Shown here in pieces: positions 23,678 to 53,474 of a DNA stretch of 64,000 bases (positions within the stretch are counted from its first letter, which is position 1; each line of letters starts with the position of its first letter). The position numbers were made by a program, and so were the translations under genes. The notes below the pieces were generated by a model. The model had not been told where the DNA came from. It saw only the letters and a program-made list of their open reading frames with translations, and did not search any database. The stretch comes from Tribonema minus. Lineage: Eukaryota > Sar > Xanthophyceae > Tribonematales > Tribonemataceae. The stretch lies in contig JAFCMP010000086.1 in NCBI GenBank assembly GCA_017506865.1, positions 1-64,000 of the forward strand. Direction: 5' to 3'.

Positions 23678-26632
23678 AAGTTGTATATTATGTCCTGGAC
23701 CGCATGGGCTGCGCGCACGATAAATCGGGCTTGCGATAACTAAATCTACGGAGGAGCCGGCGGTTCGGCGCTGGCCGGCGAGGGCCGCGGCACTTGCAAC
23801 AGTGCGATGCGGCGGTAAGCGCTGACGTCGCCATCAGGGGCAATGACTGCGTTCCAGTTGTCGATCACGACACGTGTGAGCGCGCGCTGTAGCGCGAGGG
23901 AGGTGCGGCGGCGCCAGAAGGCAACGCGCTGCGCGAGATTGTAGCTGCCCTGCGAGCTCTGCTCGGCGAGTGCGTGTAGCAGCGCTTGGGTGTCGCGTGA
24001 CATAGCGCCGAAGTGGTCAAAGGCTGCGGAAAATAGGGTGTGTGTAGTGGGGTCCAGGGCCCCTGAGACTACGTATGTGTCTATCTTTTCCTGCGAAGCC
24101 GATTCAAGCACGCGCTGCACATCGCGCGCGCCCCCCTGAGCCTGACGGAGGCGGGAGGGGCATGAGCTGTCACGTATGGTGACGTCTATGCAACAAGCTA
24201 CTTCAAAGCCGCCGCGCAGTTTAGTGCACCGGCCTGCTGCTACCGCGTCGGCGCTCGGCTGCACTTTAGGGACTGGAAGGCAGACCTGGTTGCTGCCAAA
24301 GACGATGTCCATGAACTTGTTGAACCCGTGGCGCGCCGCGTAGCGGCGGAAGGGGGCAAGGGTGTCCCGGTCGAGACCGCGGAGGTGGGCCACCTGCTTG
24401 AGCAGCTGAAAGAGCGCGTCTGCGAGCAAGTTGTGTCGCGTGACGTTAAGCCCTTGTGTGCAGCGGCGCAGGTGGGCACCCGAGTCCACTGGTCTATGGC
24501 ACTTGGGGCACCGCGCCGCAGCGGGGGCGGGGCGCTCCACGCCCAGGTGGCGCCGCAGCGTCTCGCGGAATTCCGGCGGGGACATGGTCTCCGCTGGGTC
24601 AGTGCTCGGCAATTGCGCCAAGAAACCCATGGCCCCCTTAGAGGCGCCGCTGCGCCACGCCGCGACTGCTTCCAACGCATTTGCTGCTTCAAGCCGACGC
24701 AGCTGCGTGGCGGCGAGCGCTGCGTCTAGCACCCGTGATAGCGCCGCTTGACGCCGCGGCAGCACGGCGGCCGGCGGGGCCTGGGCAGAGCCTGGCTCGC
24801 GCGCCACCGCTGGCGCAGCAGCGCGGCGCGCGCCGGCGCGAGTCCGCATGCCCGGCCCCGCAGCTCCGCCTGCCCGTTGCAGCAGATCGCGCAGCGCCCG
24901 CCATGCGCCGTCGTCCTGGCGCCAGTCCTGGTACCAGACCGTGGGCAGGAGCAGTGCGAGGGCCGCTGCAGCCTCATCGCTGCCGCTGCGCAGCTGCTGC
25001 AGGCAGGTAGCTATCTGGGTGAAGGTGAAGCCATAGCGGGCATGCTCTAGGACGCGGCTGCGTGCCGCGACTGGAAATGCCGCCAGTGCCGGCCCCATGC
25101 ACTCGAGGGAACGTGCAGCAAATGCGGCACATGCACGGGGCGCCGCGCCCAGCACGCCAAAGCCACCACTCCCCAGCCGCAGATGCACGCGTACCTGCTG
25201 ATGTGCTGGTAGCGTCACTGGGGCCTCGCCACCCCAGTCGGCGCCGCGTACCCATGCCACTGCCGCCGCCCACAGAGAGGGCGGCGCCGCCGCCGCCGAA
25301 ACCGCCGGCGGGCCGCGGCAATCGTCACCCGCCGCCGGCGCGCGCTGGTGGGCCGGCGGCGTAAGACCCGCCGATGGCTCCTGCGCCAGCGCGGCCACGG
25401 CCGCTAGCGTGATGGCGTCGAAGCGCCGTAGCTCCTCGTGCGTGAGGGATGGCGCTGTATTGCGCGAGACATGCCCTGCGCGGGCGGGGACGGCAAGACG
25501 CAGAATGGAGAAGGCAGCCTGCACATCCTCCATCTGCACAAGCTCCGCAACCAGGCGGTCGGTGCCGGGGGCACGAAGGGTCGCCGCCACTTGCGCGCGC
25601 ACGAAGCCCTCGGTGCCGACCGGCACCCCCATCAGCGTGATGCCGTCGTCACATACTGGTACGGGGACATTGGCGGCGGCAAAGACGGCGGCGGCGCGCT
25701 CGCGGGCGCCGCCTGAGGCCGGCACCACCGCCGCGCATTTCGTGACGTTGACCTGAATGTTGAGCTCGCTCAGCGCCTGTTGTATGAAGCAGAACGCGCG
25801 GCCAACGTGGTCGAGCACCGGCGCGTCACAGCTGGGCGTCATGATGGTGAGGTCATCGAGGTAGCCCGGAAGCGCCAGTTGCGGGAACTTGGCGCGGGCA
25901 GCCACCATGGTGCCGCGCAGTGCCAGCGCGAACAGCAGCGGCCCCAATGGGTCGCCCTGCTGCACGCCCTGTTGGGAGAGGATGATGGCGGCGTCGGCGT
26001 GCCCATCTAGGCCAAATTGTAGCCAAGGGGCCCGGCCGGGGCCGTAGATGTGCTCGACGTAGCCGTACAGGCCAGGCAGATGCTCGGCCACCGCGGTGAG
26101 GACTGCCGAGCGCGACAGCGCGTTGAAGGCATTACTGCCGTCAATGGCAAGGAGCACGCCGCCGCACTCATGCGTGAGCTGCGCCATGAGCGCCACTCTC
26201 TCTGCGCCCCCCCGCGCGCCGACCCCAAACTGGCCAATTGGTTCCAGCAGCGCGGAGACGCGGTCCCGGGTGTCCGTGCAGAAGGTGCGGGCGAACAGGC
26301 GGCGGATGGTGTCGCCGCACGCGATGGGGCGCGCCTTCTCGCCCACAGCGCTGAGGCGCGCGGCCGCGTGAAGGCGCCAAAAGGGGGCGGGCAGCGCGGC
26401 GGGGGTGGAGTACACCGCGGTACCCAGCCACGCCAGCAGCTCAAGGAGCCAGTCAACCGTGCGCCCCGACGTGTGCGCCGTGTGCCGGACGCACTGCTGG
26501 AGGTGGGAGTTGCGCAGCCCAGAGGGACCGGCGGCCGAGCCAGGGTTGGCGGCGAGGATGGCCTCGCGTAGCCCGTCCGCCGTGAATGAAGCGCAGTTGA
26601 GTGGTGCCGGCGCCGCCAGCGCCGCCGCAGAT
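23678..26632 (-). mobile_element. 5'-truncated non-LTR retrotransposon
   Basis: A GC-rich block with a single long minus-strand reverse transcriptase frame, flanked by the identical 14-mer TGAAGTTGAGATTG at 23664-23677 and 26633-26646, which behaves as a target-site duplication. On the minus strand the insert begins inside coding sequence and ends after only about 70 bp of 3' untranslated sequence, with no poly(A). The TSD call carries a caveat: TTGAAGTT-type sequence is unusually common in this window. Confidence 0.6.
23746..26632 (-). CDS. Non-LTR reverse transcriptase with C-terminal zinc knuckle and endonuclease-like region
   Basis: About 960 codons without a stop. RT motifs in order: AAGPSGLRNSHLQ, EKARPIACGDTIRRLFAR, LLAIDGSNAFNAL (motif A), QQGVQQGDPLGPLLFALAL (motif B), PGYLDDLTIM (motif C, catalytic YLDD). 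A CX2CX8HX3C knuckle (CPKCHRPVDSGAHLRRC) follows, then about 200 residues including NKFMDIVFGSN and VACCIDVTIRD that sit where R2-like and related non-LTR elements carry a restriction-like endonuclease; I cannot confirm its PD...K residues. There is no ATG at the 5' boundary. The first Met is about 150 codons in, inside the RT domain, and a TAG lies just upstream of the frame, so the N-terminus is missing. The intact frame and base composition differ sharply from the flanks. Confidence 0.82.
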
Positions 26633-26646
26633 TGAAGTTGAGATTG

Positions 26647-27308
26647 CAACTTCAACCCCTAATCCTAGCCATCAGCTGATTGGATTACGCCGCGCCTGGC
26701 AAGCAAGCAAGCTTGTTTGACAGGGCAGGTTGGAAAAGCCTGCCCCCTGCTTACCCTAGCCTATCTTTGATCCTGTCCCTGACCCCTACCGCTAGCACTC
26801 AAACATCACCGTACCTGATTGATCGGGCTCTTTGACAAAGGCACACACGGGGGCGAGCTCCCCCTTCGCATCGTGTGGCGTGATGCGCTTCATGAGGCGC
26901 AGGCTGTGCTCGCTGAGGATGATGCCGCCAAACAACGTGTTGAGGGTGAGCCGCCTGCAGTTGCCTGAGCGGGCTTTGCACACGCGGCGCACATATGCGG
27001 TAAGGCATGACCACCAAGGGTGTATGCAGCCTGTGTCTAAACACCGTGAATGTACTGTATATCAAAGCTTATACTTCGAAGTACTTTTAAAACATTACTT
27101 TCACTTCCAGGCGGGCAGCAAGCAATACGTTTGCTCGCAGGCTGCTCGACAGATAAAAACCCTGTTGAGTGTCTTCCGTCACCGCCACAATTCAGCGCAT
27201 GCCACAGTGATGCTATGCCATAGCAGCTACCTGCATTGCAATGCACCGGGCTACCCAAAGAGGCCCTCCGGGAATGCCCAAATACGTTGACTGTTGAGGC
27301 AGTCACTT
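26647..27308. other. Short intergenic region
   Basis: It begins with CAACTTCAACCCCTAATCCTAG, a telomere-like degenerate stretch. A minus-strand frame at 26992-26792 (containing LFGGIILSEHSLRLMKRIT) looks mildly exon-like but I cannot connect it to anything. Confidence 0.4.
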
Positions 27309-27670: not shown

Positions 27671-28156
27671 CTGTGATTCAGGGATGTGATGTGGTCAACG
27701 TTGCTGCCTGAAGGTGATCACCTTGTGTCAGGCTGGGGTCATCCATTGGTCACCTGTGCCTCATGAGCATCGAGGCGCACTATAAGTCTGCATGTCCGTG
27801 ACTTTGAAGCTGTAAGGCACAAACTTGAAGTTCAGGTGGTTTTGCGCGTGACACTTTTCTTTGGTTCAACATGCCTCAAGTGCATGCATGTCGAAACTTT
27901 CCGGGGAAAACGTCGACATGGATTTTGGCCGCACATGTGGTGGGCGCCCGGCAGTTGCAGTGTCAGCCCGCTACGCGGCGGGGAGATATTTTGTGCGGCA
28001 CAGCATACACTTTGATGCAGCAGTGATTACCTTTGAACGACGGTCACCGTTGCCGTTGCCGTGGGGGCAGGATGACCATCACAGTGATTCAAGAAAAGTA
28101 CAAAATCTCTCTGCTCATTGCCACTCTGCTGCCGCTCTGCTCTCTGCACGTCCAGA

Positions 28157-31100
28157 ATGCGTACCATAGTGACGAGCTACCGGCAGTGCTGCAAGCCGGT
28201 GGACCCACGTCGTGGCCAGCCCAACGTCACCGACCTGATGCAGCAGGGCCTGGTTCGGGCCAGCAACGTCATGGGTGTTCTTGCCCACCTGACGTCAGTG
28301 GCCATCAACTACGTAGCGGAGGCCGCGGTTGCCACAGAGTGGATTTGGAGCCAGAACCACGTGGTAAATCTGAAGCGCTGCGTCGCACGGCGGGCTCCGG
28401 TTGGCGGCCAAGGGGGTTTGGCACAGGTGGTAGAGGGGAACGCCGACGTGCAGGTGAGCGCAGGGCTGCGCAGCATCACAGGTGTGCTGGTGCGATGTAC
28501 ACTGAAAAGCGTCGCGCTTTAGGTCTGGGACGCTGACTCTTGGCCCAATTCTGGATGTTGGCATGTGATCTACCCATCGGATCACGCGCTGCAGTGCTCA
28601 GCGGCAACCGTGGTGCTCATACTGATTGTTTTTACCATGGTTGAAAGGTACATGGTTTTCAGTGGTCACCGACAGGTGTGTGCTGCTTTCAGTGCATGTT
28701 GTTGCTAGCGCTTGATGAGGTGCGTGCATGCTCAGCACGTCGTTGCTAGCGCTTGTTGCGGTGCGTGCATGCTCAGCAGGAGTGAACTCAGCGTCGCGGT
28801 CCTGTGAACGCGCCGCGATGCACTTTCGCATCCAATCCCACGTGATGTTGTGCAACTCTCGGAGTCTCGGCACTGATGAAAGCTCAGAGTCTCAGCACAT
28901 GTCATGATGCTGCTGCCGTCACTGTCATTTGCAACAGGCACATCTAGCAGCGTGCCACCTGTCACAAGATGTTCGGGACGACATCGACAAGTGGTACGTT
29001 GCCAACTTCCGGCCGCCGCTCATGCGTCAGTACCTGACGGCCGCGCGGCGCCATGTCGTCGGCGCCAACTTCGACTTGCGCCTCAGCAAGGACGCAGCGC
29101 GCCGTCTCGAGGTGCGTGCGTGGGCCCTGCGCCCCCGCGTCAGGGACGGAGCCACAGCGCTCAAGAACTTCGAGAGGATGGTGGCGGCGGGGGGGGTCGC
29201 CGCCTACCGGGCAGCCACGGCGTTCGACGAGCAGGAGGTGAGTCATACACCATTGCAGTATGCAGAGGTGGGGACCATGTCATTCTTGTCTTCAAGTTGA
29301 TGATATGACCGTCAGCTAACTGGCTGGTTGAGATGTTATATATGTGAGCAGTTGCCATACCATGCCCCCTTCCTGTATTATATTGATACCATTCAAGTTG
29401 TGTTGAGCTTCTTGCCGCTGAATATCAGTATTACAATGTGGTGTGTCAATACTTCAACTAATCACACAGTGCCATGGTGCCACTCATGTGCTTCGCACCT
29501 GGGGCCTTGAAGACTGGTGACATCACAATGGCAGTTGATCATGGTGTGGAGCTGGGACATCGGGCTGCGATGCCCAAGAAGATAGGGCATGCTTTACTAA
29601 TGACTGCAGTGAACTCATTCAGGGCTGTGACGCAGTGCTCTGCTTGGTGAGGAGTCATGTTGTACCGCAAATGCCAACCGCTGCTGTTGTGCACTAATCG
29701 CGCAGGCTCACGATACTCTGCTGAGGTTCATCAACGCCAACAGACTGCCAGAGGAAACCTGGTGGGTGCCGCTGGCGGAGATGGAGGGGGACCTGCGAGC
29801 AAAGTTCTGGGCTGCGGGCCTCTTCGAGGAGCCGCATGGCGGTCACGCTGCAGCTCAACAAGACGGGGACGAGGAGCTCGACGAGGACGGCGGGGATGGC
29901 GGGGAGGCGTTCGCGGGTGCCGCGGCTCTGAACGAGAACGAACCCGTCGACGACGAGGAGGGTGATGACGAGGCACCGGTGCTGCTGGCGCCTCCTCCCG
30001 GCTGGCCGGAGTCGTCGTCGACTTTCTTCTTCAACCGCCGCTACAAGACGTGAGTCGTGGCAATTACTTCTATGAGACATGTAATGTGTGCTCTGCCACT
30101 GACACGTGCAACTGCGTTGATGCCTGCGGCAACACACGTGGTCCATCTGATGCTGAGGCGCCAACTTGATGGCGGTGCTGGGTAGCCGAGGCCTGCCACC
30201 GCTGTGAATGGATTGTGCAAGTCCATAATTTTTGGCAGTCTGTGGTCTTGCCATGGTGCCAGTGTCACTGGGGCCAGTTTGCAATTGATGGTTGTGCCTG
30301 TACACGTTGTACATGATGTGCCTACTTAGTATTGCTGTGAGCTTAAATTATGCTGGCCACGTCGTGTGAATGCTGCTACATGCCATGACCGCTGAGATTG
30401 AGGTGGCGTGTCTCATATGACCTTCAACTTCTTTGGCGCCTTCAGCTGAGGCCACCAAAAATAGATGAACATTTTTATAAAAGAAAGTCGTTGAGAAGAT
30501 GATCGAGACTTCAAGCTCGTGCTGCGCGCCCGAATGACTGTTGATGTTGGTCTTACGCTTCCTGCTGGGCGCCCCATGCCTGCTTTGTCGCAACAGGGAC
30601 TACAAGCCGCCCGAGCAACCGCATCGTCTCCATGGCGCTGTCAAGTGCCTTGGCGTCTTGGAGCGGGTACGCACCAACAACGAGCAGTTCCTCTTGGCTC
30701 GCCAGGTGACGCTGGAGCGCGCAACAACGACCTACCGCAGCTCAGCACCAAGACCCACAAGCGCTCCGAGGTTCGGCAGAAGGCCCAAGCAGCGCAGCCC
30801 CTGAACGCGCAGTACAAGACGCAGGTGTGGCAGAGTGCCGGGCAGAAAGAGAAGGGCTGGCTACGCACCATGGCCACCATCGCCTCGCCCGCTAGGGCAT
30901 GGGCGCAAGAGGGGCCCGAGCTCCTGTCGCCCGAGGAGCAAGCGGAGTGGCGGCGTTACGTGGTTGCGGTGAGTCACTGCGTTCTCACTGCTGCTGCTGG
31001 TAGTGAGCACGCATGGTGTTGAACTTGGAGTTACTTGGTGTTTGGTCAGCGAGCGAGTGCTACCTGTTTGTGCTGCACCTGCTGCAACTCTTAGCGGCGA

Positions 31101-34100
31101 AGCATGTAGGGGTACGGTGATGGCGAGGCGGGGTAGGAGTTGGTACTGGATCAGTTGTCCAGTGGCGCGGTGGAACATGTGAACGGGCGGATGCTGAGCA
31201 CTGATTGCTGCTGCGGGATGGTCGCCTGCTGCCGCGGTTTGCTCAAAAGTCAGTTGCCCAGCACTGACTCTGCTTACGCCAGTTCATGTGCAATAAGTAG
31301 TACATCTTCAAGTTCTTGGACAATGATGCATTCATGAGCATCTGCAATATTGGTTTGGAATATCTTAGATTCCTGCAAAGTAGAAGTTACTGCCACGTTC
31401 TGGCAAGTTCTAAGAAGGTCATGCCCCCGCCGTTGGGGACGTTTCTCCTCCGACACGGTGTGTGCATTCTGCACATGATCACTTCTCTGCTTCGTGCAAG
31501 CCGCCTCCAGCACCTCCTTTTCCTGTGCTGCTATGCATTGGTCATGGTGTGTCCTTGCAGCGTAACTCTCTGAGTGTTCAATTACCCTGCACTGACTCTG
31601 TTGATTCTGCATCGCATCAATCCTGTGCTCCTCACAAGGGCACGATCTTGCTGCTGGCAGTCAGAGGTGCTCATTATGTGATGCATACCTGTGCGGCGGA
31701 AATCTAGTTGATTAATCCTTCTTTTTATTTGTGTCCCTCCTGTGTAGGCGGCCAACATACGCAGCCTGGCATTTCAGCGGAGGGCGCAGCCAGGGACGCT
31801 GCGGCCGCAGGCCCGCTTCACGCTGCTGCCGGTGACGGCGCTGCGCCCAGCGTTCCTTCAGCTGAGCCAAGACACGATCGGCACGCTGGTCAACAAGGTC
31901 GTCGACGCCCACATACCGGTGCTGAAGGCGCGCGTGAACGAGGCACGTCCACGGCGTAGAGCAGACCTGGCGGTTGTGCAGCCCCTGTTCGCCAACGTCA
32001 CCGGCGTTGCAGCGTGGTTCGACGCAACGCTGGCGCAGGGTGCCGCCGCCGATGAGCTCACGCGCAACCACTACCGACACCTCGACTACTACATTGGTGC
32101 CGGCACCCAACAACGTGAGGCACTCAAGTCGGCGCTGCAGCAAGGCCAGTCGAACACCGCCTGGTGGGGCGGTGTCTTCGACTTCCACACCAGGCGGCGG
32201 CGGCGAAGGAGGGAACGCCCGCGCCATCGGCGGCGGCCAGACCCGAAGCTGCGGTACCGCCGCCGACACGGCCCCAAGGGGCAGCAGCGCCGGAAACCGC
32301 TGCGTCCCAAGGGGGGGAAGACGGCGGGGGGGCTGCCGCTGCTGTGGGGGCTGGGCTGGACGCTCGCCCCGCCGGACGGCAGCGGCGGCGGCGGCGCCAG
32401 GGGGCAGCGTCCGGTGTGGTTGGTGAACCACTTGATGACGGACGGCCTCAAGGTGAGCAAAGCAGTGTCACACGGTGGCACTCGCCCCCTTTGGGTTCTG
32501 GTGACAGAATTTCATGAAGCTGTGTAGCAGGCGGATTCGTGTGATGACACTGGCGCCTTGCACGCGAGCGCTGCCTGTAGCACTGTGATATTGCTGTGAG
32601 ACTGACCGCATGGTTGCACATGTGCTGAGCATCTGATGCGCGTTCGTGGTCAGCTGCAGATTTTTGAAGTTGCTTGTTGTACAGTGCTGACCATTGGTTA
32701 GAGGTGCCATCAAGTTACAGTTGCTCCGTGCTGCAGTGCCAGAAATCATGTTTCATTTCTTGAGTTCAATTTTGCATTTCCTTGAGTTGCAGTTTTCACC
32801 AATAGCTTTCAACCTCCGCTCACTCCGCGTTGTGCGGCACGCGTCTGACGAGATGTAACGCTCTGCGCCGCCACTGTCAGATATATTTTGATGCTGACAG
32901 CGGCGCCACTGCATGCGTTGCTAATGCCTCTTGGGGTTAGGTTCAGAGCTCGAGGGTAGGGGTCGAGGGTTGGGTAGGGGTAGGGTTAGGGTTAGGGTTA
33001 GGGTCTACTAGGGTCTGGGGTTTAGGGTCTAGGGTTTAAGGCTGAGACAAGGGTTAGGGTTAGGGTTGGCGTTAGTGCATACTTATCACCAGTACGACCG
33101 CTATCATGTCCTTGTCTCATCGTAAAGCACGATAAGAACGTAAAGCACAAGAAGACTCACAACCCCTGCGCTCCCTGCGCAGCGTCGCGAGCAGCTGTCG
33201 TGCATCAGCGCGCGCCAATTTATTGCCCATCTGCCGCAGCAATGCTGGTCATAGCAGCACGCCTTGCTGTAGGGCATACGCTGCACACAGATATGACTTT
33301 GTCTTTGCCCGCAACTGGTTTCATTGGTGTTGCAGGTGTGCGTGGGCCTGGTGGCAGTGATCAAGCCTCGCCAACAAGAGCGCGAGGAAGCCGGCGCTGA
33401 GCGCGAGGGAGAGGACACCGAGGGCGAGGGAGAGGACACTGACGACGGCACCGAGCACCAAGTCCAAGTCAACTGCGGCAGGCTGCCGACGGGCGTAGCC
33501 GAGCTGCGGAAGAGGGGCTACCGCAGCGTCCAGGCGGAGTTCGACATCAAGCGCGACAAGCGCGGAGTTTTCAACAGCGTCAAGAAGCTGCCGGACAAGT
33601 GGCTGCAGGCGTTGCATGACGCAGACGAAACCGAAGGGTGAGTCTTGATCACTGCAGCAGCAAGGGCTCTCAAGACATGCCTGCATCCTGGTTCTATGTC
33701 TTGCGCTGTGTTCGCCTACTGTCAGCTGGAGGCTCTTGAAGTATGTGCTTGGCGCATGCATGTCTGGCTGTCACATGAGCGGTGATGAAGAGTGAATACT
33801 TGAGCGCTGCCAAACCGCGCATTGTGCACATGCCGCCCACGTCGATGGCTTGCTGGCATCGCACCCCTAACCTCAACCCCCGATGACCTAGCCCTAACCC
33901 TAGTTGGACTGAGCTAGGGCTTGTCCTTACCCTGGTTGAGCCTCTTTGACAATACTCAAACATACGCCAGCGTTGCTTGCTTGTTGCACTGACGACTGCG
34001 GATGGTACGCGTGGCTGCTGCTTCTTCCTGCAGCGGTGCGATCCCTGAGAAGTATGCAATCAAGGCCATTGGCGTGGACCCCGGCCAGAAGTCGATCGCC

Positions 34101-35657
34101 GTCAGCGTCCGTGGGCTCGTGACCCCAAGCCTGTCCGCTGCAGACCTCAAGGGGACAGCGGTCGAGTCCAGGACTGCTGATTTCAAGTGAGTCCCACTAA
34201 CTTCAGCACCAATCTAACCCCGCAGAGGTCGGTCTGGAGGTTGCTGTAATTGATGCACGTGCTTGCTACTGCCACTCTTGAGCACTGACTCAAGCGTGCT
34301 GCGGTGCTGGCCCTTGTTTCAGCGCTGACTGCTGATCGACATTATATATTATCTACGCTTGACTGCGCTCAGCGTCAGCAGCAGCAAACATGTCTAATGT
34401 GATATGTCTCACAGCGGGCATTGTCATATAGCCTGTGATTTAGAGCTAGCGCAGTGAATGCCTGCAGCAGCAGAATTTTGCAATTAACTTTGAAAAAGCA
34501 CCATGTATGTTTGACAGTGTATGCGGGGGTCGTAGGCATTGTAGCACAAGGACGGCAAAGCGATGATTTAATGGAACTTTTTAAATGCACACGTGTCGTG
34601 AAGCTGTGCATCCACTTTGTCACAAGTGATGATGCACAGCGGGTTAGTGGCGAGTAGGGGGCGCAACTGGCAATCAGAGCACTTCTATTTTCACCGTGCA
34701 GGCTACTCTGACATGCACTGATGCAATGCTTGCCAAGTGACACAAGTGGGCACAGTGCATGCTGGCGGCAGAGCTCAACATGACGAAAGCAGTTGAGAAT
34801 GGAGGCCAATTCCTGTCTGTGATCATGCAAGTAATTGAGAACGCCAGTGTATGGTGTTTTTAACATGTAATTTGATGTATGCAAGTGCACGCCGGCAGAG
34901 ACTTGCAGCTCACTGCAACTCCCCCCCCCCCCCCCCCCCCCCCCTCTTTGCTATGTGCTCCCTCCCCAGGTTCGAGGCGCTGGCCAAGAACTCGCAGCGC
35001 TACTTTGAGAGGTGCAACAGGAGGGACCCGCAGTTCCAAGCGGCGGAGGCGCAGTTCACGGAGCAGACGTCCCTCCGCAGGCCCGGCGTAGCTGTGGCAG
35101 CCAACTACGCCGCAGTGACGTATGACACGCTGTCCGTGCGCACCCGCCATTACTTCACCTGGGAGCGGCGGATGCGCTCCTTCAACTCGTACCGCGCACG
35201 CGAGCGGGCGGTGGCCCGCGTGGCGCGGGACATCATCGGACCGCGCGACACGGGCGTGCATCGCGTCGTCTTCTTCGGGAAGGCGGAGTTCGGGAGCGGC
35301 TCCCGCGGTCCCATCCCGAGGAAGCGTCTCATCCGGCACCTCGCGTGCCTGGCGGCAGTGGTCCTGACCGATGAGTACCGGACGTCAATCACCTGCCCCC
35401 AGGATAGGGCACCCCTGCACCGCCTCGCCTTGGGATCCCGGGTCTTTCGTTGTGCAAACGCGAGGCCTGGTGTCCCCGTGGAGGTGCGGTGCAATGTAGG
35501 CGCCATCGACCGCGACCATGCCGGGGCTGACAACATCCTCATGTGCGGCGTGGCGATGCTGCTGGGGGGGGTGCGTCCTGCCGCGTTTCGCCGCGGCCCT
35601 GACTGTGGCAAGGCGGCCTCCCAGGCCCACGTCTGGGTCAATCCGCACGCGGGCTAG
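28157..35657 (+). CDS. Fanzor: TnpB-like RNA-guided nuclease, eight exons
   Basis: Exons by frame and GT-AG sites: 28157-28453, 28938-29237, 29706-30049, 30597-30968, 31748-32452, 33336-33637, 34034-34186, 34970-35657; phases agree at every junction. About 1,050 residues, within the size range of Fanzor proteins. The RuvC parts are unmistakable: RuvC-I AIGVDPGQKSIAVSVRG (Asp codon 34076), preceded by the NHLMTDGLKVCVGLVAV strand; RuvC-II VVFFGKAEFGSGSRGPIPRK and LTDEYRTSITCPQD (Glu codon 35373); RuvC-III AIDRDHAGADNI (Asp codon 35514). Family knowledge: Fanzors are eukaryotic TnpB homologues that cleave DNA guided by an RNA from the element's end. The TnpB-type zinc finger is atypical (CPQD instead of CPxC). 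One base is missing near 30722 in exon 4, the only frame break. The 3' region is shared with other copies. The start codon is the least certain point. Confidence 0.9.
32933..33068 (+). repeat. Interstitial telomere-like repeat in a Fanzor intron
   Basis: Blocks of GGGTTAGGGTTAGGG and degenerate GGGTCTAGGG/GGGGTAGGG units over about 135 bp inside the intron between exons 5 and 6 of the Fanzor gene. G-rich strand on plus, opposite to the terminal array. Confidence 0.85.
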
Positions 35658-36165
35658 CGCCTGCCTGCACTGCTGCTGCTGCTGCTGTGGGGTATGTATG
35701 CATGTGGGGTTGGGGGGGGGAAGAGGGGGTAGATCAGTCAGGCTGCCAGGAGGGGGGGGGGGGGGGAGGAAAGGGGTAGGGGGGGGGGTTAGCCTATTGA
35801 GCAGCCCTCAGTTGGTGCATATAGCCACTGAGTAGTAGCAGCAGCAGTAGCAGTGGCAGCAGCGGCGGAACCATCAGCACCAGCAGCGGTACCCCTCACA
35901 CACACACACAACAATTGGCGTGTCTATCATGACACCTTGCCACGGGGGGACGGCGCGTAGTGTGCGGCATCGCGGCGCGCGGCGTGCAGCGTCTGCGGGC
36001 AACGCCCGGTGTCGCATGTGCGTTGCCTAACCTTGATCCCTATGGGGGCCCGGTACTCAACCGGTCTTGGACCTCGCAGCAGCTATTACAGTGTAGGTGC
36101 TGACGCGGTCTCTGCTATTGAGCTCTACCTCCTCCGGAGGTGGAGTGTGCAATGCCCTTAATATG
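35658..36165 (+). other. Right-end non-coding region of the Fanzor element, candidate guide-RNA locus
   Basis: About 0.5 kb from the stop codon to the point where similarity to other copies ends. It holds (CTG)n, several G-runs (35712-35788), a CAG/TAG-rich block, a CA run, a segment ending 'gatccctatggggg', and a terminal part with the hairpin CTCTACCTCC-TCC-GGAGGTGGAG (36123-36145) followed by TGTGCAATGCCCTTAATATG. It is conserved at 44265-45450, a copy without any protein-coding part. In TnpB and Fanzor systems the guide RNA is transcribed across the element's right end into the flank, so this is where it would be expected. No RNA evidence is available here. Confidence 0.6.
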
Positions 36166-37638
36166 CAGACCAGAGCATCACATGATACAATTGAACTGGT
36201 ATAGGCAGAACACCCCAGATTGTGCACACATATGCATTGTATGCCTCGGCACCAGCATGCAGACCGCGCGTGCCAAACGATCAGGGGAAAGTATGAGGTG
36301 CGAGCGCTACAGGCAGTCAGAAAGTGAGGCATGCTGCTGTTGACATTCAAAGACTGCTGACCCGCGATGCACGATTATCATGCCCTGCAACTCATGAGTT
36401 GCGCACTCTACTCACTCAGCGCGGGCGGCGGCTCCTTCGGGCACATGCTCACTGCCCTCCACATGTTTGCGGTACGGACAAGCGGAACGGCAAAGAGAGG
36501 GCTGTTTGCCTCTAGCGCAGCACTCGACAAAGCTAGTCTAAGAGTGGTGCTGACCATGGCAAGTCACTTGAAGTCACGTTGGCATCTGACAGGGACCGCA
36601 CCACCGATGCCATCCGGTTCCTGGGCCTGAATGCTGCAGAAATGACCGGTGACCAATAAATTCTGCGAAGAGCCTCTGAGAGCACAGGGCAGGCTTGCTA
36701 GTGGTGGCCACCATGGCCGGCGACATCGGGGATGAGCGTGCAATGCTGACGTCGTATGTTCGGCCGTGAAAACGGAGGTGCAAGGCGGGAGCTGGTCCAT
36801 TTTGCATAGAGTTCCTAGGATCAGGCCCTCATTTTGTTGGCAATGGTGAGCACGACGGCGACCGCGGCGGTAATTGAGACAGTTGCCTGCTGATGTACGA
36901 TACATGACATTGTGCATAGCGGCAGCAGGACGTGGCGGTGGACGTGACCTTGCAAATGTATTACCAGAAGTCATTACCAGCGTGAACACTGTTGCAAGTG
37001 CAGCTGTGGCCCACCGGATGCACTTGCGTTATTCGACAGCACGTGATGCTCTGTTACACGGTAATGATGTGACATATGACATTGTCATGCCATCAGTTTG
37101 TTCACGGTCAATTTATGACTGAGCAATTACTGTATGGCCAGCACCTTTCTGCTCATAGCTGGGACTCTAGGAAATATCTGGCTAACAATCATAGACAATA
37201 TTAACTGATCGTCTTGTGTTGGCCTGCTGGCCTGCAGGATTTTTAAAGTCAGCGTTACCTTCTGAAAATTGAGACTGGGCGTTGTGCACGTGCAGCCGCA
37301 GCGCCTCTCGTCCCAGATGATTGCGAGCTGTCTTGCGGTCGACCTACTAGGCCTGGCACAAGTTTTATCCTCCCCCTGACGAATGCCACAAATTGCCATC
37401 TTGGTGGACGTTCTCTCTGGCTTTATTTCAGCCCCCAAAAAAAACACCTTCCTCTTTGTTGCGCAGCTGGCCATGATTAGCGTCGCGGCATGCGTAACAG
37501 TGGGTATGGCCAATTAAGGCCAGTACAGTTCATTGCCCAGCACATGAGCCTTTACAGATGTGCGAGATGTGCACAACAACTGAGATCTAGTACGCGCGAG
37601 TTCAAACTTCAGTGTAGTGTAAGTGTAGGTAGTGAGTT
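36166..37638. other. Intergenic region between Fanzor copies 1 and 2
   Basis: No recognised gene or repeat. Open frames on both strands are short and featureless. Confidence 0.5.
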
Positions 37639-37926
37639 CATTATTAAGGGCATCACACCACCCGAGACCTCGCAAATCTCAGGCGTGTGATCAGAGCGGT
37701 GCTTCGACTCCCATCTGAAAGTGCTTCCACACCACTCGCCAGGAAATACCTCTGGGCCCCCATAGTTGCTGCAAAGAGGGGTTCCCGACCATAACTCAGC
37801 GACTCAACCCCCCCGCATGGCAAAATGTCACATCGACATGCCTGATAGTTTTGTGTGTACTGACTGCCACTGCTGCTACTACACTGCCCCTCTCCCATCT
37901 ACCATGTGAATGATGCTGCATGGCAG

Positions 37927-38058
37927 TCAGCTGCCCCCCCCCCCCCCCGCCCCCCTCCTCCCCCTACTTCCACCCCCCAAGGCCTGGCTGACCCCGTGCC
38001 CCATCATCATGTACATGCATCTGCATATGTACATAGATATGCCTCGCAGGCGCTCACA

Positions 38059-38092
<34 letters not shown>

Positions 38093-38779
38093 CAGCAAGG
38101 CGCTAGCCGCCCCCAGGACGCCAGATATGCGCCTCCGAGGCGTTGCCTGCCCATACCACGGCCCCGGCAAAACTCAGGAGGACGCACCCCATAGAGCATC
38201 GCCATCACGCCGCACATGTCGATGTTGTCCGCGCCGGCGTGGTCGCGATCGATGGCCTTCACATTGCACCGCGACTCCTCAGGGACATCAAGCCCCGAGT
38301 TTACGCAACAGAACACCCTAGATCCTAGGGCGCTGCGGCGCAGGGGTGCCCGATCCTGGGGGCAGGTGATCGAGGTGCGAAACTCGTCGCCGAGGACCAC
38401 CGGTGCCAGGCAGGCAAGGTGCCGGATCAGGCGCTTGCGCGGCATGGGCCCGCGGGAGCCACTGCCAAACTCCGCCTTGCCGAAGAAGACCACCTTCCGC
38501 ACACTGGGGTCGGGTGGCCCCAGAATATCACGGGCCACCCGTGCCACCGCCCGCTCCCTGGCGCGGTAGGCGTCGAACGTGAGTATGCGGCTCGTGTGGT
38601 AGTGGCGTGCGCGCACGGACAACGTCTGGTATGTCACCGTGGCGTAGTTGGCGGCAGGTGCTCCGGGCTTGCGCAGGGAGGTCGCTGGCGTGAAAAGCTG
38701 CTCCGCCGCGTCCATCTGCGGGTCCTGCTTCCGGCACATCTTCCAATAGTGCTGCGAGTTCTTGGCGAGCGCCTCGTAC
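37927..38779 (-). pseudogene. Last exon of a second Fanzor gene
   Basis: Begins after a splice acceptor (gtccag, 38780-38785) at the same codon phase as exon 8 of the full gene and reads YEALAKNSQ..., matching it throughout. It retains RuvC-II VVFFGKAEFGSGSRG and GDEFRTSITCPQD and RuvC-III AIDRDHAGADNI. The two copies are clearly diverged outside these motifs, so they are distinct subfamily members. Near the C-terminus a one-base shift moves the frame: the alternative frame reads NASEAHIW...GGG-stop like the full gene, while the actual frame runs on through an Ala run ((GCT)n) into unrelated residues. With no upstream exons it cannot make a nuclease. Confidence 0.88.
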
Positions 38780-40408
38780 CTGGACGGCAAGGCAAGGGGC
38801 GGAGGGGCAGGGGGGCGGGGGGGATGAGCACCGCTTCATGATTGCTAAACTGGAACAGCACACCAACTTGAAGCTACTGTAAATCATACACAAGTGTCAT
38901 GCAAAATATCACTATATGTTGCATGAGTCCGACCACTGCTGCATCAGTGCATGCCATGCTGTTGCAGTAGCTGAGGGTGCGATCTGTCCTCCCCGAGATG
39001 CATGAATACCATGTCACGTAATTAGGTGTTGGCGCTGTTTTTGCTATATGCATCCATAATGCCCCGTGACTGGAACTTGTAACAGCGCAGCGCAACATCA
39101 TGATGATGACGTGTGTACATGTTTGCTGTGAATGCCGTGTATCTGTGACCGTAGCTGATTGCTGCACAACCACCCAAGTATCTGTAGGAGCACATATCTG
39201 ACGCTATGCATCGGCCAAGACTGCAGACCCTTCGGGGGTTACGAGACCAGATGTTTGATGGATGAATGTGCCACTGCCGTCTGCCACGATTGCTGGGTCT
39301 GTCGCGTGCTTATACTTGTGTCAAGTCAACAAGAGTGTCAGACTATTTGTGCAGTGGCACATACAAAGATATGCAGTCACCGTGGCACATACATAGATAC
39401 ATAGATATGATGATATGATGCAACACATGTTCTACTGCCGCTGTACAGCATGCACCAGGCGTGTGTACAGCTACTATAGTCTACTTTGTTGCCTCAAGCT
39501 CCTGCTGCACGTCGTACCCATGCCCCGACTTAAAGTGCCCATGATGTAAACCTTGGCTTGCTGCGCATGCTGGACACGAATTTCAAACAGTGCACGAAGT
39601 CATGTAGCTATCCCATTGGACCATTCATGATGTGCCATGTGCAAGAGCATGGGTGGTGCTGATGCCGTCCCTGCTTGCGTGCTGCAGTGATGGCCTGTTG
39701 AGCTGCCTGATGCTACTGTGACACATTGCGCGATAATCTTGTGGGCAGAGTTCCCTCTGATGCTGCGTCACAGCACATGCACTGCATGTTGCTTCTATGA
39801 TGGTGGAGAGGCATGTTGAAGGTCTGCATTTTCGATAGAGGTACAGTTGTCACAAATGCACTGATGCATCATTGGTGACTCAAATGATCGTAAGCTGTGG
39901 CGACAGTCACTGTGCACGGCCATATGTGATGGCAGGGGTGCTAACACAAGCTGGTATTCTATTAACTCGCTCATTGTGGTGAGGCGACCCTAGGGGGAGC
40001 TGTTGTTGAAGTAGGGTTGTGTAACCGCCGGTACACGACGTGCCTTTGATGCCCAACACCAAGACTTCCTGACAGGACTTCTCTCCACTGCCTTGGACCG
40101 CTGGCTATGCTCTCATTTGATATGGGTTTGCACACAGCACATGGACATGTGGAACTGAGGTCTCAGGGGTCGCAAGGTGTGTGTTTTCTAGCAGTAGTTC
40201 ATAAACACAGCAGTGAGGCACAGATCAGTCTCTCGCTGACACGGGCAGCAGTGGTAGTTGACAGGCGACATTTGGGCATTGCAAGTCTGCTGCCACAGAT
40301 CTCGATCACTGCGAGTGCTCTCCTTTCTCAGGCTGCGGTGCTTTTGCAGTCTGTGGTGCTGTTACAAAAGGCTGGCTGTGTGTGAGAGAGCTGCTTCATT
40401 CTGTCAGA

Positions 40409-40556
40409 TCAGCTGCCATTCCGCACAAGTGGAATGGCATTTCTTCTTTCACGTTCATTCTTGTATTCCTGGCAGAATTTCCTGCGCGCAGCTCTGCTTT
40501 GCGCCGCCGCAGTGACGCCGGGCCTGCGCCGCAAATTCTTCGCCAGCGCCTCAAGA
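40409..40556 (-). pseudogene. Fanzor exon remnant in copy 2, deleted
   Basis: After a C-run and splice acceptor (gttccccag) the frame reads LEALAKN, like the start of Fanzor exon 8, then jumps to RRRPGV, which in the full gene lies about 30 residues later, and continues with unrelated ARRKFCQEYKNERE to a stop. The same remnant is at 53475-53622. Confidence 0.7.
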
Positions 40557-41071
40557 CTGGGGAACACACAACAGAGGGGGGGGGGGGGGGGGGGAGTTGC
40601 AGCTGCCTAGTGAATCAGATTGACCATATATGACATGCCCTAGGGTTAGGGTTTGACTGTGGATCATTTCATCATTTTTATGAATGAGTTCATTCTTGGC
40701 AATCCACATGCGCAGCAAGCATCAGGAGATATAACCGCCAGCTGGGCCACCCTGAGGCTCTCCGTCGTCACCTCCTCCAGGTTGCACAGCTTTGCTGCTT
40801 GTCAACTGGTGCCCTCATCGCACCAACTGCTAGCGCTTCATTGAATTCGCCTGCTGCTGGTCATGACTGGATGCGATGCAAGTCGGATTCTGTTCACGCG
40901 CAAGCTGCTGCAAGCTGCTCCTCAGGCCTAAGCAATTGAATCTCCTGCGGTTTGTCATGTTTTGCTGGCTCTCAATTTCTCGCTGATCTGCTAACCTTAA
41001 TGCGCGGCTGCCTGTTGCTGCTGCTGCTGCTGATGCTGCTGTCGCATGGCAGACGATTTTCTCCAGATGCC

Positions 41072-43866
41072 CATGAACTTCAAGGTCATGATGCCGACGC
41101 TATGTCTTCTAATGGCTTCATCATCAGGCAACGCCTTCATGACCTCCTTCAAGTTGCCTAGTGTTTTTCGTTGTGGCGCGGCGAGGATGCCTGCTTCTGC
41201 ATCACGTGTGGCGCTGTGCATGGCTAATCCGGATGTTCAACCACCGGAAGAGACTCTGCTGCAGCAGACGCTGCGGGAGGCCCGAGAAGTGAAGCAGAAA
41301 CTCAATGAAGTCAGTGAGAGAATTGCTCGCGTCGGTGCCATCAGAGCTGTCAGCGACGCTCGCATGGCCGATACCGAAGCTGCCTTGTCCAGCTTCGGTC
41401 AACAGGTGGAAGAACTGATGAAGGCTGGGGTCCACAATCTTGTCTTGAGGCAGTCGCCGGACCTGCAACCTCTTGCAACCGATAACCTTGTTCAGCTTGC
41501 GGGCTTGTTCGGCGGTGGCGACGAGGCCCGCCTAAAGCTCGCCGACAGTGCTGCTTGTGAGCTGCTTGCTAAGCGGATGGTGCCTCAAGTGATGAGCCGT
41601 ACTTTGTCCAAACTCAAGGTGAGTCCTGCCAGAGCATTTGCATGTAGGTTGAAATGTTGATTGTTGCTTGATATGTGCATCAGCGAAAGCTCAACTCAGA
41701 TGACCTTCCTCACATGATGACATTGTGACAAATACCGGCTCGCATCGCCGAGGTGCAGTAGAGCTTGAACCTTGACGGCAATAGCCTGAAAGGGGTGATC
41801 GCAGCACCACTTTCGGGGCAGTACATCCTTCATCCAGCTTTGATGCATGAGTCAGCGTGGTGAGTTGGCCCACATCATTACCGCTGTAGCTGTGTCCACC
41901 TGGTGAGCTTGGTGAGCTGCGCGCTAACTGCAATGCCTGTGCTTAGTCATCTTGACTGCAATTCAAGTGTTTATGTGTGCCTGGTTTTCTATCGTACAAA
42001 TATCTTTGTATATCATGATCTCTTGGTCTCAAGGACCCATCAAGCCTGTCTTCACCTTGTGGTGTGTTCTTGTTGTGGGTGTCCCTTCATGCCCTGCTGG
42101 GAGAAATAAGAAAACAATCTTGCACAAAGATGTCTAAGGAATGCAGACTTCGTGTGCAATTTACAAAATGCAACAATTGTGTGTGTGCATGCCTGCGTTG
42201 TGTCCTGCCGCTATGCTGTGCATGACATATACTTGCATCAAATCTGTTGCTGTATTTGCACCTCCATGTTTATCCAAAGCCCCATTGCTGGCTGTGGCTG
42301 CTGCGTTGCCCTCCTGCACGACACTTCATGTGTGGCATTGTGCTGTCTGCCAAAACTTGCATGGAGGCATGGCTTACCCAGGGATGTTCATGCCCCTTCA
42401 TCTTATGCTTTGGCTGATACGCCTTTGCTGTCCACTGATGGCCTGAGATACTTGCAGGCATACCATCGCGTTGGCGAGCACATCAAGTGGATGGCTGATG
42501 ACGATGAAGTTGACGTGGACGCTGTTGAGAGCTTCATACGGAGCGTTTTGGCTGACCGTGCCAACCTCAGTGCAAATCACCTTGAGGAGAGGACAGAGCT
42601 GAACAAGGCGCTGGCACAATTGATGGCTGACGTCAAAGCAGTACAGCGGGGCTCAAACAATGACGGCGTCAAGGTGAGTTAAGCATATACATCTTGTGTA
42701 TCAGGTTTACGTATGGACTTGTATTTATAAAGGCCCAAGGGAGGCCGGGTTGCCTATGCAATCGAAAAGCTGCGTCAACGCAGCAGCCTAGTCTGCGAGT
42801 ACCCTAATGTTCCGTTTCCGGTTCTGCTTTTGCTGCAGTGGCCTAACCCTAAGAGCACACCAGTTAAGCAGCTGACCTGCCGTCGCTTAGGCTTGCTTCA
42901 GCATTCTACATCCATGTCCCCACGAACAACCAGCCGTCCCTGCTTACTGGACGTGTAGCGCTTGTGCTCACATGAAGCATCTTCCCATCCACAGACTGTC
43001 ACTATGTCAGCGGCTGACGCCGAGCGGTAGGTCCACCAGCACATCGAACTGCTCACGTCGATGACTCTTCAACGCTGGCAAATGGGTGTTTCCAGCTTCG
43101 CGCGCCTGATACACTATCTATTGCTGTGACACGACCATCACCATCACTGTGAGGCCTCTGTTCCCTACTTCACCATATTTTGGCATGTTTCTGGTTGAGT
43201 AAGACGTGAAGCGGCTTCACATTGCGTTGTCGTGCACCCTTGCACTTTCCCTGTTTGTCCGGGAGCTGACCACACTAGCCACCAGAGGCTGCGATCGTTG
43301 GTATGTAAAGCTGCTTCTATATATCATCGTCTTCGCTGTGTCAACAAACGTAAAGGTGTAACTCGTTGTCAGTGTGTGAACGTGTACGTGTTTTTGTAGT
43401 GTCTCTGACCCTCTTACACTTCTTTCTTTTTTGCCGCACCCAGGTGCTGATGCAGAAGGCTGCTGGCGTGACGTGTGCAATCGCGTATACGTGTGAGAGG
43501 GAGTTGGAGGAACCATTTGCTACCTTTATGCCGCCACAGGTGCAGCAGAAAGAAGCTCTTGCCTCTGTGAAGCACATCCCTACTCTCAACAAGGTGGTGA
43601 TTCAGGTCTGCCATGTGCAAGCATTGTTGGAGTATGACACCTCGGTGCGCGAGCTTGGTATACAGCTCAAACTACTTGCCTGGCTAGCCCGCATTAGGTT
43701 TGGCAGCAGCGTTGATGATGAGCTTATAGGTGAGCTGAGCGTGGCTTCATATGGTGACGATCCGCTTGTGGTTGTCGACAGCAAGCAGCGCTCACTGGCA
43801 CGCGCACTCTGGGGTTTTGAGCTAGTGGTAGTCCCTTACAGGGTGTCACGCTTCAAGTGGGACTAG
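41072..43866 (+). CDS. Unrecognised three-exon protein with presequence-like N-terminus
   Basis: Exons 41072-41618 (a Met at 41046 is also in frame), 42458-42673 and 43444-43866, with phase-0 introns and good GTGAGT donors; about 395-405 residues. The N-terminus MNFKVMMPTLCLLMASSSGNAF is hydrophobic and is followed by a basic, Ser/Ala-rich stretch ending RVALCMA, which resembles a plastid or bipartite presequence. Next comes LLQQTLREAREVKQKLNEV, predicted coiled coil, and an alpha-helical body. The C-terminus ends RVSRFKWD. I recognise no family. The frame is clean and exon junctions agree, so I consider it a real gene. It lies between Fanzor-family copies 2 and 4. Confidence 0.65.
42711..42801 (+). 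repeat. ~90-bp short interspersed element, solo copy
   Basis: The sequence TATGGACTTGTATTTATAAA continues to GCAGCCTAGTCTGC and recurs at 44672-45334, where it is split by a hAT-like element. This copy lies in intron 2 of the 41-kb gene and is the uninterrupted version. Confidence 0.75.
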
Positions 43867-44671
43867 CATAATGCAGGCCACTGGAGCTTGTGGTGATGCA
43901 TCAATGTGCCAAGAATGTCATGCTGCAAAGACAATTGCGTTAACGGCAAAGATGGTGGTCGCACTTCTTGTGATATACGGCGGCAGAGATAGTCGTCGCA
44001 CTTGTTGTGGTGGGCGCACGCAGGCATCGCTGGTGCGGGTGTGTGCAACCGACACAAATTGTAATGCTGCTGGCGTGAGGATCAATGCATTGAAGCCGCA
44101 ATGCGGTATGTGTTTACACATCATCATTGACATGCCTGTGCAGCTGCCGCATGATTTGTGCCTGTTGTGAAGTAGACCTGATGTGATGCTTGAAAACAGT
44201 ACATGTTGTAGCACTGACGCAGTGGTTGCAGTGCAGACGCTGCAATGGCCAACATATGGCTACAGCTAGCGCCTGCCTGTGCTGCTGCTGCTGCTGCTGT
44301 GGGGTTTGTATGCCTGAGGGGGGGGGGGGGGGGGGGGGGGGGGGGTAGATCAGTCAGGCTGCAAGGGGGGGGGGGGGCAGGAGAGGGGGAGGGGAGGGGG
44401 GGGGGGGTAGCCTGTTGAGCAGCCCTCAGTTGGTGCATGTAGCCACTGAGTAGTAGCAGCAGCAGTAGCAGTGGCAGCAGCGGCGGAACCATCAGCACCA
44501 GCAGCAGTACGCCTGACACACACACAACAATCGGCGTGTCTATCATGACACCTTGCCACGGGGGGCGGCGCACAGTGTGCGGCATCGCGGCGTGTGGCGT
44601 GCAGCGCCTGCGGGCAACGCCCGGTGTCGCATGTGTGTTGCCTACCCTTGATCCCTATGGGGGGCCGGTAC

Positions 44672-45334
44672 CTATGGACTTGTATTTATCAGGGGTTGTC
44701 ACGACTCCTCGCTCGGAGTCGTCTCTGACTCCGCTCCGACTCCGCTCCGGCCGGAGCGGAGTCGGAGTCGATCGGCATATCTCATTGCTCCGCGGAGTCG
44801 GAGTCGGAGTCGTTCCGCCGATCAAGTTGCTCCGGCCGGAGTCGGAGCGGAGCCGTACGTATGGGCGGAGCCGTACAGTTGCTCCGGAGCGAAAGGTCCC
44901 GACTCCTGGCTGAGCATGCTCAAACACGCATATTTGGTGCAATGCGGTACAACGCAGTGCTGGGTTGTGGCTGCAAGTGGCTCAGAGACAGGAATGTACA
45001 TTTTGAGGTGGTGCTGGTTGCAGCAAGGCAGGGTCGGAGTCGGTCTGGAGTCGTCGCACGACTCCGCTCCGACTCCGCTCCGGCCGGAGCGGAGTCGGAG
45101 TCGTTTGAGCCGGCCCATTGCTTCCCGGAGTCGGAGTCATCCAACGAAGGGTGCCAGCTCCCCGGAGCGGAGTCGCAGTGGTGAGCTCACGAGTCACTGC
45201 TCCCCGGAGCGGAGTCGGAGTCGTCCAGGTTTTGAGGAGTCGTGACAACCCCTGGTATTTTATAAGGCCCAAGGGAGGCCGGGTTGCCTATGCAATCGAA
45301 AAGCTTGCGTCAACGCAGCAGCCTAGTCTGCACT
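44672..45334 (+). mobile_element. ~90-bp element inserted in copy 4, split by a nested element
   Basis: Flanked by GGTAC at 44667-44671 and 45335-45339. In copy 1 the corresponding site (36050-36054) has a single GGTAC, so this is an insertion with a 5-bp target duplication. Removing the nested hAT-like element leaves about 90 bp, matching 42711-42801. Confidence 0.75.
44690..45254. mobile_element. Non-autonomous hAT-like miniature element (565 bp)
   Basis: Perfect 20-bp terminal inverted repeats: CAGGGGTTGTCACGACTCCT at 44690-44709 and its complement at 45235-45254. Flanked by GTATTTAT (44682-44689) and GTATTTTAT (45255-45263), an approximately 8-bp target duplication. The empty site is present at 42711-42801 (GTATTTATAAAGG). 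CAGGG termini and 8-bp duplications are typical of hAT transposons. The interior has no coding capacity and is built from GGAGTC/GACTCC units, including long palindromes around 44725-44770 and 45059-45103. Confidence 0.88.
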
Positions 45335-45450
45335 GGTACTCAACCGGAACACTGACCTCGCAGCAGCTATAGACAGTGTAGGCGCTGACGCGGTCTCTGC
45401 TATTGAGCTCTACCTCCTCCGGAGGTGGAGTCTGCAATGCCCTTATTATG

Positions 45451-46198
45451 ACTTGTGTGCCCCTTAGGGTTGCGCCTGCGCTGAAATGCAATGCATACAA
45501 CATGAGCATGGATGGGATACTGTATGACTTGTCTGCCTCTGCGCTGAAGTGCAATGCATTCATCACAGGAATGCACAGCAATTAGGCCTCGCCCTAAGTT
45601 ACCTAACCCTTACGCCCCAAAGCAGCAGCAGTCAAGTAAGTGTGTACAACAGCAGCACATGTACAGTGAGCAGGCCCACACACAGCTGTACAGCAGATTG
45701 CTTTATTGCACCAGTTGAAATGAACCTTCATGAGTTCTGTAGCTGCGACATGGCAGCTCTTCTTGGTGGCTACTTCTTTCATCCTAGAAACAGCCTTGCC
45801 ATGAGGACACCATGTACGTCTGATAGCGTGTGTTGCATTATACTCCCAATCTGCCAAACTTTGTAGAAATGTCAATGGCATCAACTTGCTGTGCCACAGT
45901 CTTTAGCTGCGATACCTAGAAGTACTTGGTGTCAAGCCATCCACGACCATGCAGATGTGGACAGCACCACCGCGTCACTGCGGTCCCTTGCTCTGTGCTG
46001 CCTACCTCATCACCAAGTAGATCATTTAAGATGGAATCCCAAGGTGCTGCAGAATGCGTGACGACATGAAGTGTGACAGCGTGCCTGGACTAACCATTCC
46101 TACAATTGACATGCAGCCATCCCTCAGCGAACTCCCCGAGCCTGCTGACCAAGACTACTGCCCCGTGTGCCGCTCGTTGAACAAATGCAACATCGCTG
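45451..46198. other. Intergenic region downstream of the channel gene
   Basis: No recognised gene. It would contain the 3' untranslated region of the minus-strand bestrophin-like gene. A short telomere-like CTAACCCTTA lies at 45602. Confidence 0.5.
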
Positions 46199-53294: not shown

Positions 53295-53474
53295 TTGCCG
53301 AGAATAAACTCATTCATGAGAGGAGAGAGAGAGAGAATGGAATAAATGATGAAGAATAAATAATGAAATGATCCACAGTCAAACCCTAACCCTAGGGCAT
53401 GTCATATATGGTCAATGATTCACTAGGCAGCTGCAACTCCCCGTCCCCCCCCCCCTCTGTTGTGTGTTCCCCAG

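Follow-up and report, generated by a model that had tools for sequence, protein, structure and literature searches.

Locus and gene model

The stretch analysed here (64,000 nt, hereafter the window) forms the left end of a contig of 304,255 bp in the 158-Mb genome of the yellow-green alga Tribonema minus. The contig starts with CCCTAA telomere-type repeats, which bears out the description of the element family as subtelomeric given in an earlier note on this DNA. Similar repeats are found at the ends of contigs C105, C335, C4 and C204, each time at most about 6 kb from a family copy. Two 300-nt direct repeats in the window (4969-5268 and 17608-17907, 98% identical) flank open reading frames with reverse transcriptase, RNase H and integrase domains, and probably mark a young LTR retrotransposon. 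The ORF at 10791-12980 resembles a C5 DNA methyltransferase by eye, with no Pfam match at E<=0.01.

The forward strand carries an eight-exon gene (Table 1) whose seven introns all start with GTGAGC or GTGAGT and end with AG. The earlier note had described an eight-exon frame with agreeing phases. The exons are indeed in place with GT-AG borders and the junction phases agree, but the frame changes inside exon 4, at about 30700-30725. Because of this internal change, the literal splice (3,161 nt, a length not divisible by 3) reaches a stop at about residue 382, ahead of the RuvC motifs, whereas a piecewise reading of the eight exons gives 1,054 residues. The introns are consistent with a long adaptation to a eukaryotic host. 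In P0006, the sole relative labelled as a transcript assembly, intron 7 is read through unspliced into exon 8 (by eye). A piece of intron 4 (31316-31573) is a dispersed short repeat with more than 20 matches elsewhere, and intron 5 contains a degenerate internal telomere-type repeat (32931-33075).

Table 1. Features of the Fanzor-type gene, its predicted 3' end and neighbouring copies (window coordinates)
Feature	Position	Strand	Evidence
Exon 1	28157..28453	+	Open frame, proposed start ATG 28157, donor GTGAGC; no profile support; by eye like the P0013 N-terminus
Exon 2	28938..29237	+	GT-AG borders; weak collinear match, E 0.02-0.07
Exon 3 (acidic insert)	29706..30049	+	GT-AG borders, phase 2; no match alone
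Exon 4, frame change within	30597..30968	+	Two frames match successive parts of intron-free relatives
Exon 5 (RFTLLPV block)	31748..32452	+	tblastn E 3e-6 to P0014/P0011; profile stretch E 5e-29
Exon 6	33336..33637	+	tblastn E 3e-4 to P0014/P0011
Exon 7, RuvC-I GVDPG	34034..34186	+	tblastn E 0.002 to P0014; DPG
Exon 8: RuvC-II DEYRTS, degenerate zinc ribbon CxxD...C...C, RuvC-III DRD, stop TAG	34970..35657	+	tblastn E 2e-30 to P0014
Conserved, foldable 3' end (candidate scaffold of an omega RNA)	35916..36163	+	Identity, fold z
Predicted terminal fold: closing helix and three branches, the last a hairpin near CTCCTCCGGAGGTGGAG	36043..36163	+	Fold prediction
Would-be guide under the omega RNA interpretation	36164..36183	+	10/10 other ends stop at 36163-36169; start placed to within about 3 nt
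Copy of exon 8, different subfamily	38073..38822	-	75% nt identity to the window copy; over 1.6 kb, 89% to L043 and 82% to L054
5'-truncated 3'-end copy, about 660 bp inserted	44265..45450	+	35653-36056 at 44265-44671; 36052-36165 at 45335-45450

Homology to Fanzor and TnpB proteins

Intron-free relatives from Tribonema minus (P0011-P0015 and P0018) were found by protein search, and the piecewise protein was compared with a profile of nine intron-free relatives. The match reached 333.6 bits (E 3.4e-101); among 200 shuffled control sequences, 89 were reported with a top score of 7.0 bits. The signal is strong from the end of exon 4 to the start of exon 6 (E 5e-29), over exons 6-8 (E 3e-37) and in exon 8 (E 7e-35). 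It is weak in exon 4 across the frame change (E 0.016, both sides), in exons 2-3 (E 0.069) and in exon 2 alone (0.021), and neither exon 1 nor exon 3 alone matches this profile. When P0011, P0012, P0014 and P0018 were compared with the window by tblastn, exons 5, 6, 7 and 8 were matched in order. The intron-free proteins P0011-P0015 and P0018 (contigs C90, C112 and C179) share the order of conserved blocks, the RuvC-I Asp and the rearranged glutamate with the window gene, except that the P0013 C-terminus is without these motifs. They differ in having long single open frames and an intact first zinc pair, and their contigs also carry giant-virus capsid matches. The three that were compared are 37-42% identical to the window exon 8.

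The Pfam family PF07282 was detected at E<=0.001 in 10 of 11 intron-free relatives, and its curated cut-off (26.3 bits) was passed by all 14 places listed elsewhere in the genome. Window exon 8 scored 18.8 bits, under this cut-off, and gave no match in an NCBIfam search. The earlier note had made its reading depend on a Fanzor/TnpB profile match to exons 6-8, and on this point it survives narrowly: these exons match the profile of the relatives, but exon 8 falls short of the PF07282 cut-off. A second profile, made from exon 8 and its relatives, gave seven matches, with a TnpB-like one (L79) at E 2e-4. The other six (E 0.05-0.26) were two Cas12f proteins, a TnpB, a Parasitella Fanzor 1, a transposase and one unrelated ssDNA-binding protein. 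An alignment search for distant homologues added one new protein, P0021, and two scans of the viral_contigs set confirmed no relative. The predicted structure of exon 8 is of low confidence (pLDDT 61). Among the 28 PDB chains that Foldseek listed for this model, the Spizellomyces Fanzor 8gkh came first (E 0.044), a Cas12f second and the same Fanzor third, with no match at E<=0.001. A model of the full-length relative P0011 was too poor (pLDDT 42) and was set aside. A descent of exons 4-8 from Fanzor/TnpB, Fanzor being a eukaryotic relative of the CRISPR nucleases, is supported by their homology to the intron-free relatives.

The motifs GVDPGQKSIA, TDEYRTS and IDRDHAGADNI named in the earlier note are all present. 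The RuvC D-E-D residues are thus retained, in GVDPGQK of exon 7, in the rearranged glutamate and in the DRD of RuvC-III; the glutamate is followed by six residues and then by the first ribbon cysteine (E-YRTSIT-C). In Yoon 2023 (PMC10711439), DPG at RuvC-I and a rearranged glutamate ExxxxxxC before the zinc ribbon are given as Fanzor features, and the window gene has both. The search pattern used there, which is not a definition, is DPG-x(120-160)-E...CxxC...CxxC...D; the window gene departs from it by a DPG-to-E spacing of 168 residues and by CxxD in the first zinc pair. The spacing also exceeds 160 in five relatives recounted without gaps, in which 198-210 residues lie between the Asp and the Glu as compared to 170 in the window gene. 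The motif of Bao and Jurka 2013 is D-X(125,275)-[TS][TS]-X-X ... RD plus a C4 zinc finger (PMC3627910). Its spacing part is found in the window, where 170 residues separate the RuvC-I Asp from the Glu, YRTSIT follows and DRD is present, but the C4 finger is not, CPQD (CxxD) standing in place of CxxC.

The zinc-pair residue was read at 14 distinct intron-rich places (28 overlapping loci, window included), of which those on C356, C108:244k and C289 are near-identical copies. It is D at 13 places (26 loci) and V on C379 (2 loci), and CxxC was found only in the intron-free L038, by a motif pattern search that would miss more diverged motifs. Since D occurs at 13 of the 14 places read, the change to CxxD is old and shared and is not a defect of the window copy. 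We call the protein a Fanzor-descended variant because the C4 finger, a defining feature of the 2013 motif, is not retained.

The repeat family and its 3' end

The 3' part of the gene belongs to a repeat family. At least 63 matches to 33200-36163 were found (40 of 139 candidates scored); 21 of them, window included, reach the 3' terminus, and all of these have different starts, some of which may be alignment breaks. With a query extended beyond the terminus, the match broke off at 36163-36169 in all 10 other 3' ends, which come from 9 loci, one of them within the window, and their flanks differed. The last 107 bases match 38 genomic places, with 32 reaching to within 2 bases of a query end beyond which the match could not extend, and more diverged 3' ends show 73-88% identity. 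Few matches were found to the upstream exons. There are 18 to exon 5, several of these being pieces of a single place or intron-free relatives, and eight to exons 2-3, two of them the window itself. On C335 and C204, telomere repeats terminate the element pieces on their 5' side. In L042, two copies of the element 3' part are inverted relative to each other and have the same flank upstream.

A true 5' end of the element at 33697, where 5 of the 63 matches start, was considered and is doubtful, as C51 continues upstream past about 400 extra bases, which lie at this intron-6 point (C51:340863-341551). Inverted matches of at least 8 bases to the 33697 break were not found in a scan.

The window holds further members of the family. 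Of the three defective relatives that the earlier note had counted within 28 kb, one is a copy at 38 kb and one a copy at 44-45 kb, whose matching parts are 44265-44671 and 45335-45448 (Table 1); the rest consists of two fragments (40526-40602 and 53439-53505; 88 and 73 alignment columns, 76-77% identity). That the window gene was the source of its neighbours is unproven, since the 38-kb copy is closer to copies on C546 and C93 (89% and 82% over 1.6 kb) and the 44-45 kb copy, 90-91% identical to the window copy, does not stand out from copies on other contigs, which reach 86-92% over a similar stretch. The insert in the latter (44672-45334, about 660 bases) shows a possible 5-bp duplication, 36052-36056 being matched on both sides.

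Target duplications of 11-14 bp were recognized at the truncated 5' ends of two of nine copies examined. The L041 duplication, ATATGTCAGAT, abuts the truncated 5' end, and that of L039, ATATACAGGTCATA, is followed by 9 extra bases before it. The other seven copies share a flank run of only 4-6 bases; in a random control of 3,633 segment pairs, a shared run of at least 11 was obtained in 12 and of at least 14 in one. The bases directly before the two duplications are GCCC and CATC. After CCCTTR, the 3' flank reads ATA at 9 of 11 ends and TTA at two. The base ahead of ATA is C at both sites with duplications, so that a C|ATA target motif, read at two sites only, is no more than a sequence lead.

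Conservation of the 3' end extends well beyond the coding region. Compared with the window copy in bins of 50 nt, the other copies are 87-98% identical in the exon and 97%, with many indels, in the bin directly after the stop. Identity is about 80% over 35720-35869 and 89-98% in the next six bins, which start at 35870, the last 290 or so noncoding bases being about as conserved as coding exon. The segment 35916-36163 has a predicted folding energy of -123.7 kcal/mol, against -103.0 +/- 4.8 for 200 shuffled sequences, none of which was as stable (z -4.35). A scan of 172 segments on both strands, with a grid set so that one segment starts exactly at 35916, gave the lowest z at the 3' end (-3.84), by a small margin over a telomere-like stretch on the minus strand (-3.56) and a coding stretch (-3.4). 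The closing helix of the terminal fold ends 3 nt short of the element 3' terminus. Double changes were observed in 2 of 85 pairs, a level that 88 of 500 shuffles also reached, the copies being too alike for covariation to be informative. An Rfam search of 28000-46000 gave two matches only (E 0.48 and 0.96), far under the gathering scores. Judged from conservation and predicted folding, the 3' end is a candidate omega RNA.

Spread of the element and origin of the gene

We consider it likely that the window carries a predicted RNA-guided DNA nuclease gene of Fanzor descent, borne by a mobile element. The conserved foldable 3' end would act as the omega RNA scaffold, with host DNA just past the terminus as the guide, and its position would predict both the guide and the target motif. 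Intact members would cut the matching target, which could help to keep or copy the element. The element itself would have spread by a one-ended, 3'-anchored mode such as that described for Chlamydomonas Fanzor1 elements.

Bao and Jurka 2013 report the Chlamydomonas reinhardtii Fanzor1 elements CRe-1, CRe-2 and CRe-3 and propose a one-ended Helitron transposition for them (PMC3627910). As described there, these elements are also multi-exon (5-10 exons, 8 here), with 5'-truncated copies, intact 3' ends, a hairpin near the 3' end and target duplications of variable length where copies are truncated (7-19 bp, 11-14 here). In contrast, their duplications follow TTTT or T-rich tetranucleotides and their 5' end is Helitron2-like (PMC3627910), whereas ATA is found at 9 of 11 3' flanks here. 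The Tribonema protein also has a degenerate zinc ribbon. Since the T-rich target rule does not hold, the Tribonema family works like a CRe-type Helitron2 and is not equated with one. An autonomous Helitron owning the 3' end was also sought: none of 15 Helitron_like_N matches lies within 10 kb of a 3' end (by eye; the nearest is about 13 kb away, on C542). The Mucor MCi-2 Fanzor1 family has similarly fuzzy 5' ends, a conserved 3' part and 11-12 bp duplications of the pattern ATAATTNNNN(N), but its subfamilies share alternative 5' regions (PMC3627910); none was identified here. The Spizellomyces SpuFz1, according to Saito 2023 (PMC10432273), has the same Fanzor RuvC arrangement and 'ghost' copies keeping only the ends. 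Its omega RNA lies at the right end with the guide beyond, to which the candidate 3' end is likened, and its target motif is CATA, as compared to C|ATA at the two readable sites here. It differs by a single ORF, terminal inverted repeats and a CCCC zinc finger (PMC10432273). The Tribonema family suggests a second case, in stramenopiles, of the one-ended mobility described for green-algal Fanzor1 elements.

An extended form of this reading appears improbable to us. The element would be a self-contained 3'-anchored OMEGA unit, with a 3' omega RNA whose guide is directed to the flanking target and a CxxD lineage active in spite of its non-standard ribbon, and a break at C|ATA would start one-ended copying that leaves duplications of 11-14 bp. 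Fanzor would then be the direct agent of transposition.

The main rival for the mode of mobility is a LINE reverse transcriptase acting in trans on the Fanzor transcript and making 5'-truncated copies, the 3' end then being a retrotransposon-like recognition tail and not an omega RNA. LINE insertions usually show a fixed 3' end, variable 5' truncation and target duplications, and the fixed 3' end, variable truncation and 11-14 bp duplications observed here fit this pattern. A reverse-transcriptase ORF (23749-26658, minus strand; 970 aa, RVT_1 E 8e-9; possibly a LINE) lies 1.5 kb away. However, the start of L039, one of the copies with a target duplication, falls within intron 7, and L042, L043 and L052 keep exon 7 together with intron sequence; because these copies retain introns, spliced mRNA was not their template. 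Furthermore, no poly(A) run was seen past the 10 junctions looked at, and an 18-base 3'-end pattern found 19 times in the genome does not occur at the reverse-transcriptase gene of the window. We regard this explanation as possible but doubtful.

A different question is whether the window gene is still functional. Pairwise dN/dS was calculated for 10 exon-8 copies, skipping gaps and stop codons; two copies, on C521 and C105, have an in-frame stop. Values against the window copy were 0.16-0.40 in all nine pairs. Of the remaining 33 pairs of 90 codons or more, 31 gave 0.13-0.60 and two exceeded 1, each with only 2 synonymous changes. These comparisons suggest that exon 8 was under purifying selection in the past; as many copies are truncated, the ratios would reflect selection on source genes. 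An intact gene, perhaps domesticated by the host, would also agree with dN/dS below 1 in exon 8, as well as with the good splice sites and with the window copy being the sole near-full-length copy found. The frame change would then be a sequencing error or be bypassed by a very short GT-AG intron in exon 4, where a 35-nt GT..AG stretch would be frame-compatible (by eye). That stretch, however, encodes NNDLPQ, matching the conserved block INNDQPYL of relatives. No relative found spans the frame-change site, and sequencing error and mutation are therefore indistinguishable there. We find an intact gene unlikely. The copy, which the earlier note had called near-intact, has all eight exons but also one frame change in exon 4 and one lost zinc cysteine, and is probably a recently decayed, otherwise full-length family member.

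That exons of unrelated genes were strung together into a spurious model is hardly credible: exons 1-3 have little or no profile support, but the consecutive matches of exons 4-8 to a single family (333.6 bits, with 7.0 as the top score among 200 shuffled controls) already contradict this idea there.

The window gene has intron-free cousins in the same genome, some of them on contigs with viral genes. Ten NCLDV capsid matches were found; C112, C179, C90 and C21, which also have intron-free Fanzor-type matches, carry one each, and C144 combines one capsid match with a PF07282 match. The nearest capsid-Fanzor pair, on C112, is separated by about 10 kb, the remaining ones by tens of kb. No capsid match was obtained on further contigs that have long intron-free matches, such as C346, C68, C379, C59, C401 and C279. 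PMC13236599 describes a Fanzor in viral elements of Ectocarpus and homologues of integrase in Tribonema. Besides this report, where Fanzor refers to Ectocarpus, main texts gave no lead linking Fanzor to Tribonema, and the gene may be listed in supplementary tables of surveys. A transfer from virus to host would be one direction compatible with these contigs. As one genome contains both an intron-rich family and intron-free cousins located on contigs with capsid matches, the proposed virus-mediated spread of Fanzor becomes testable within a single species. On the capsid-bearing contigs C179 and C112, the loci L002 and L003 are intron-free TnpB-like open frames of 577 residues with DMG at RuvC-I.
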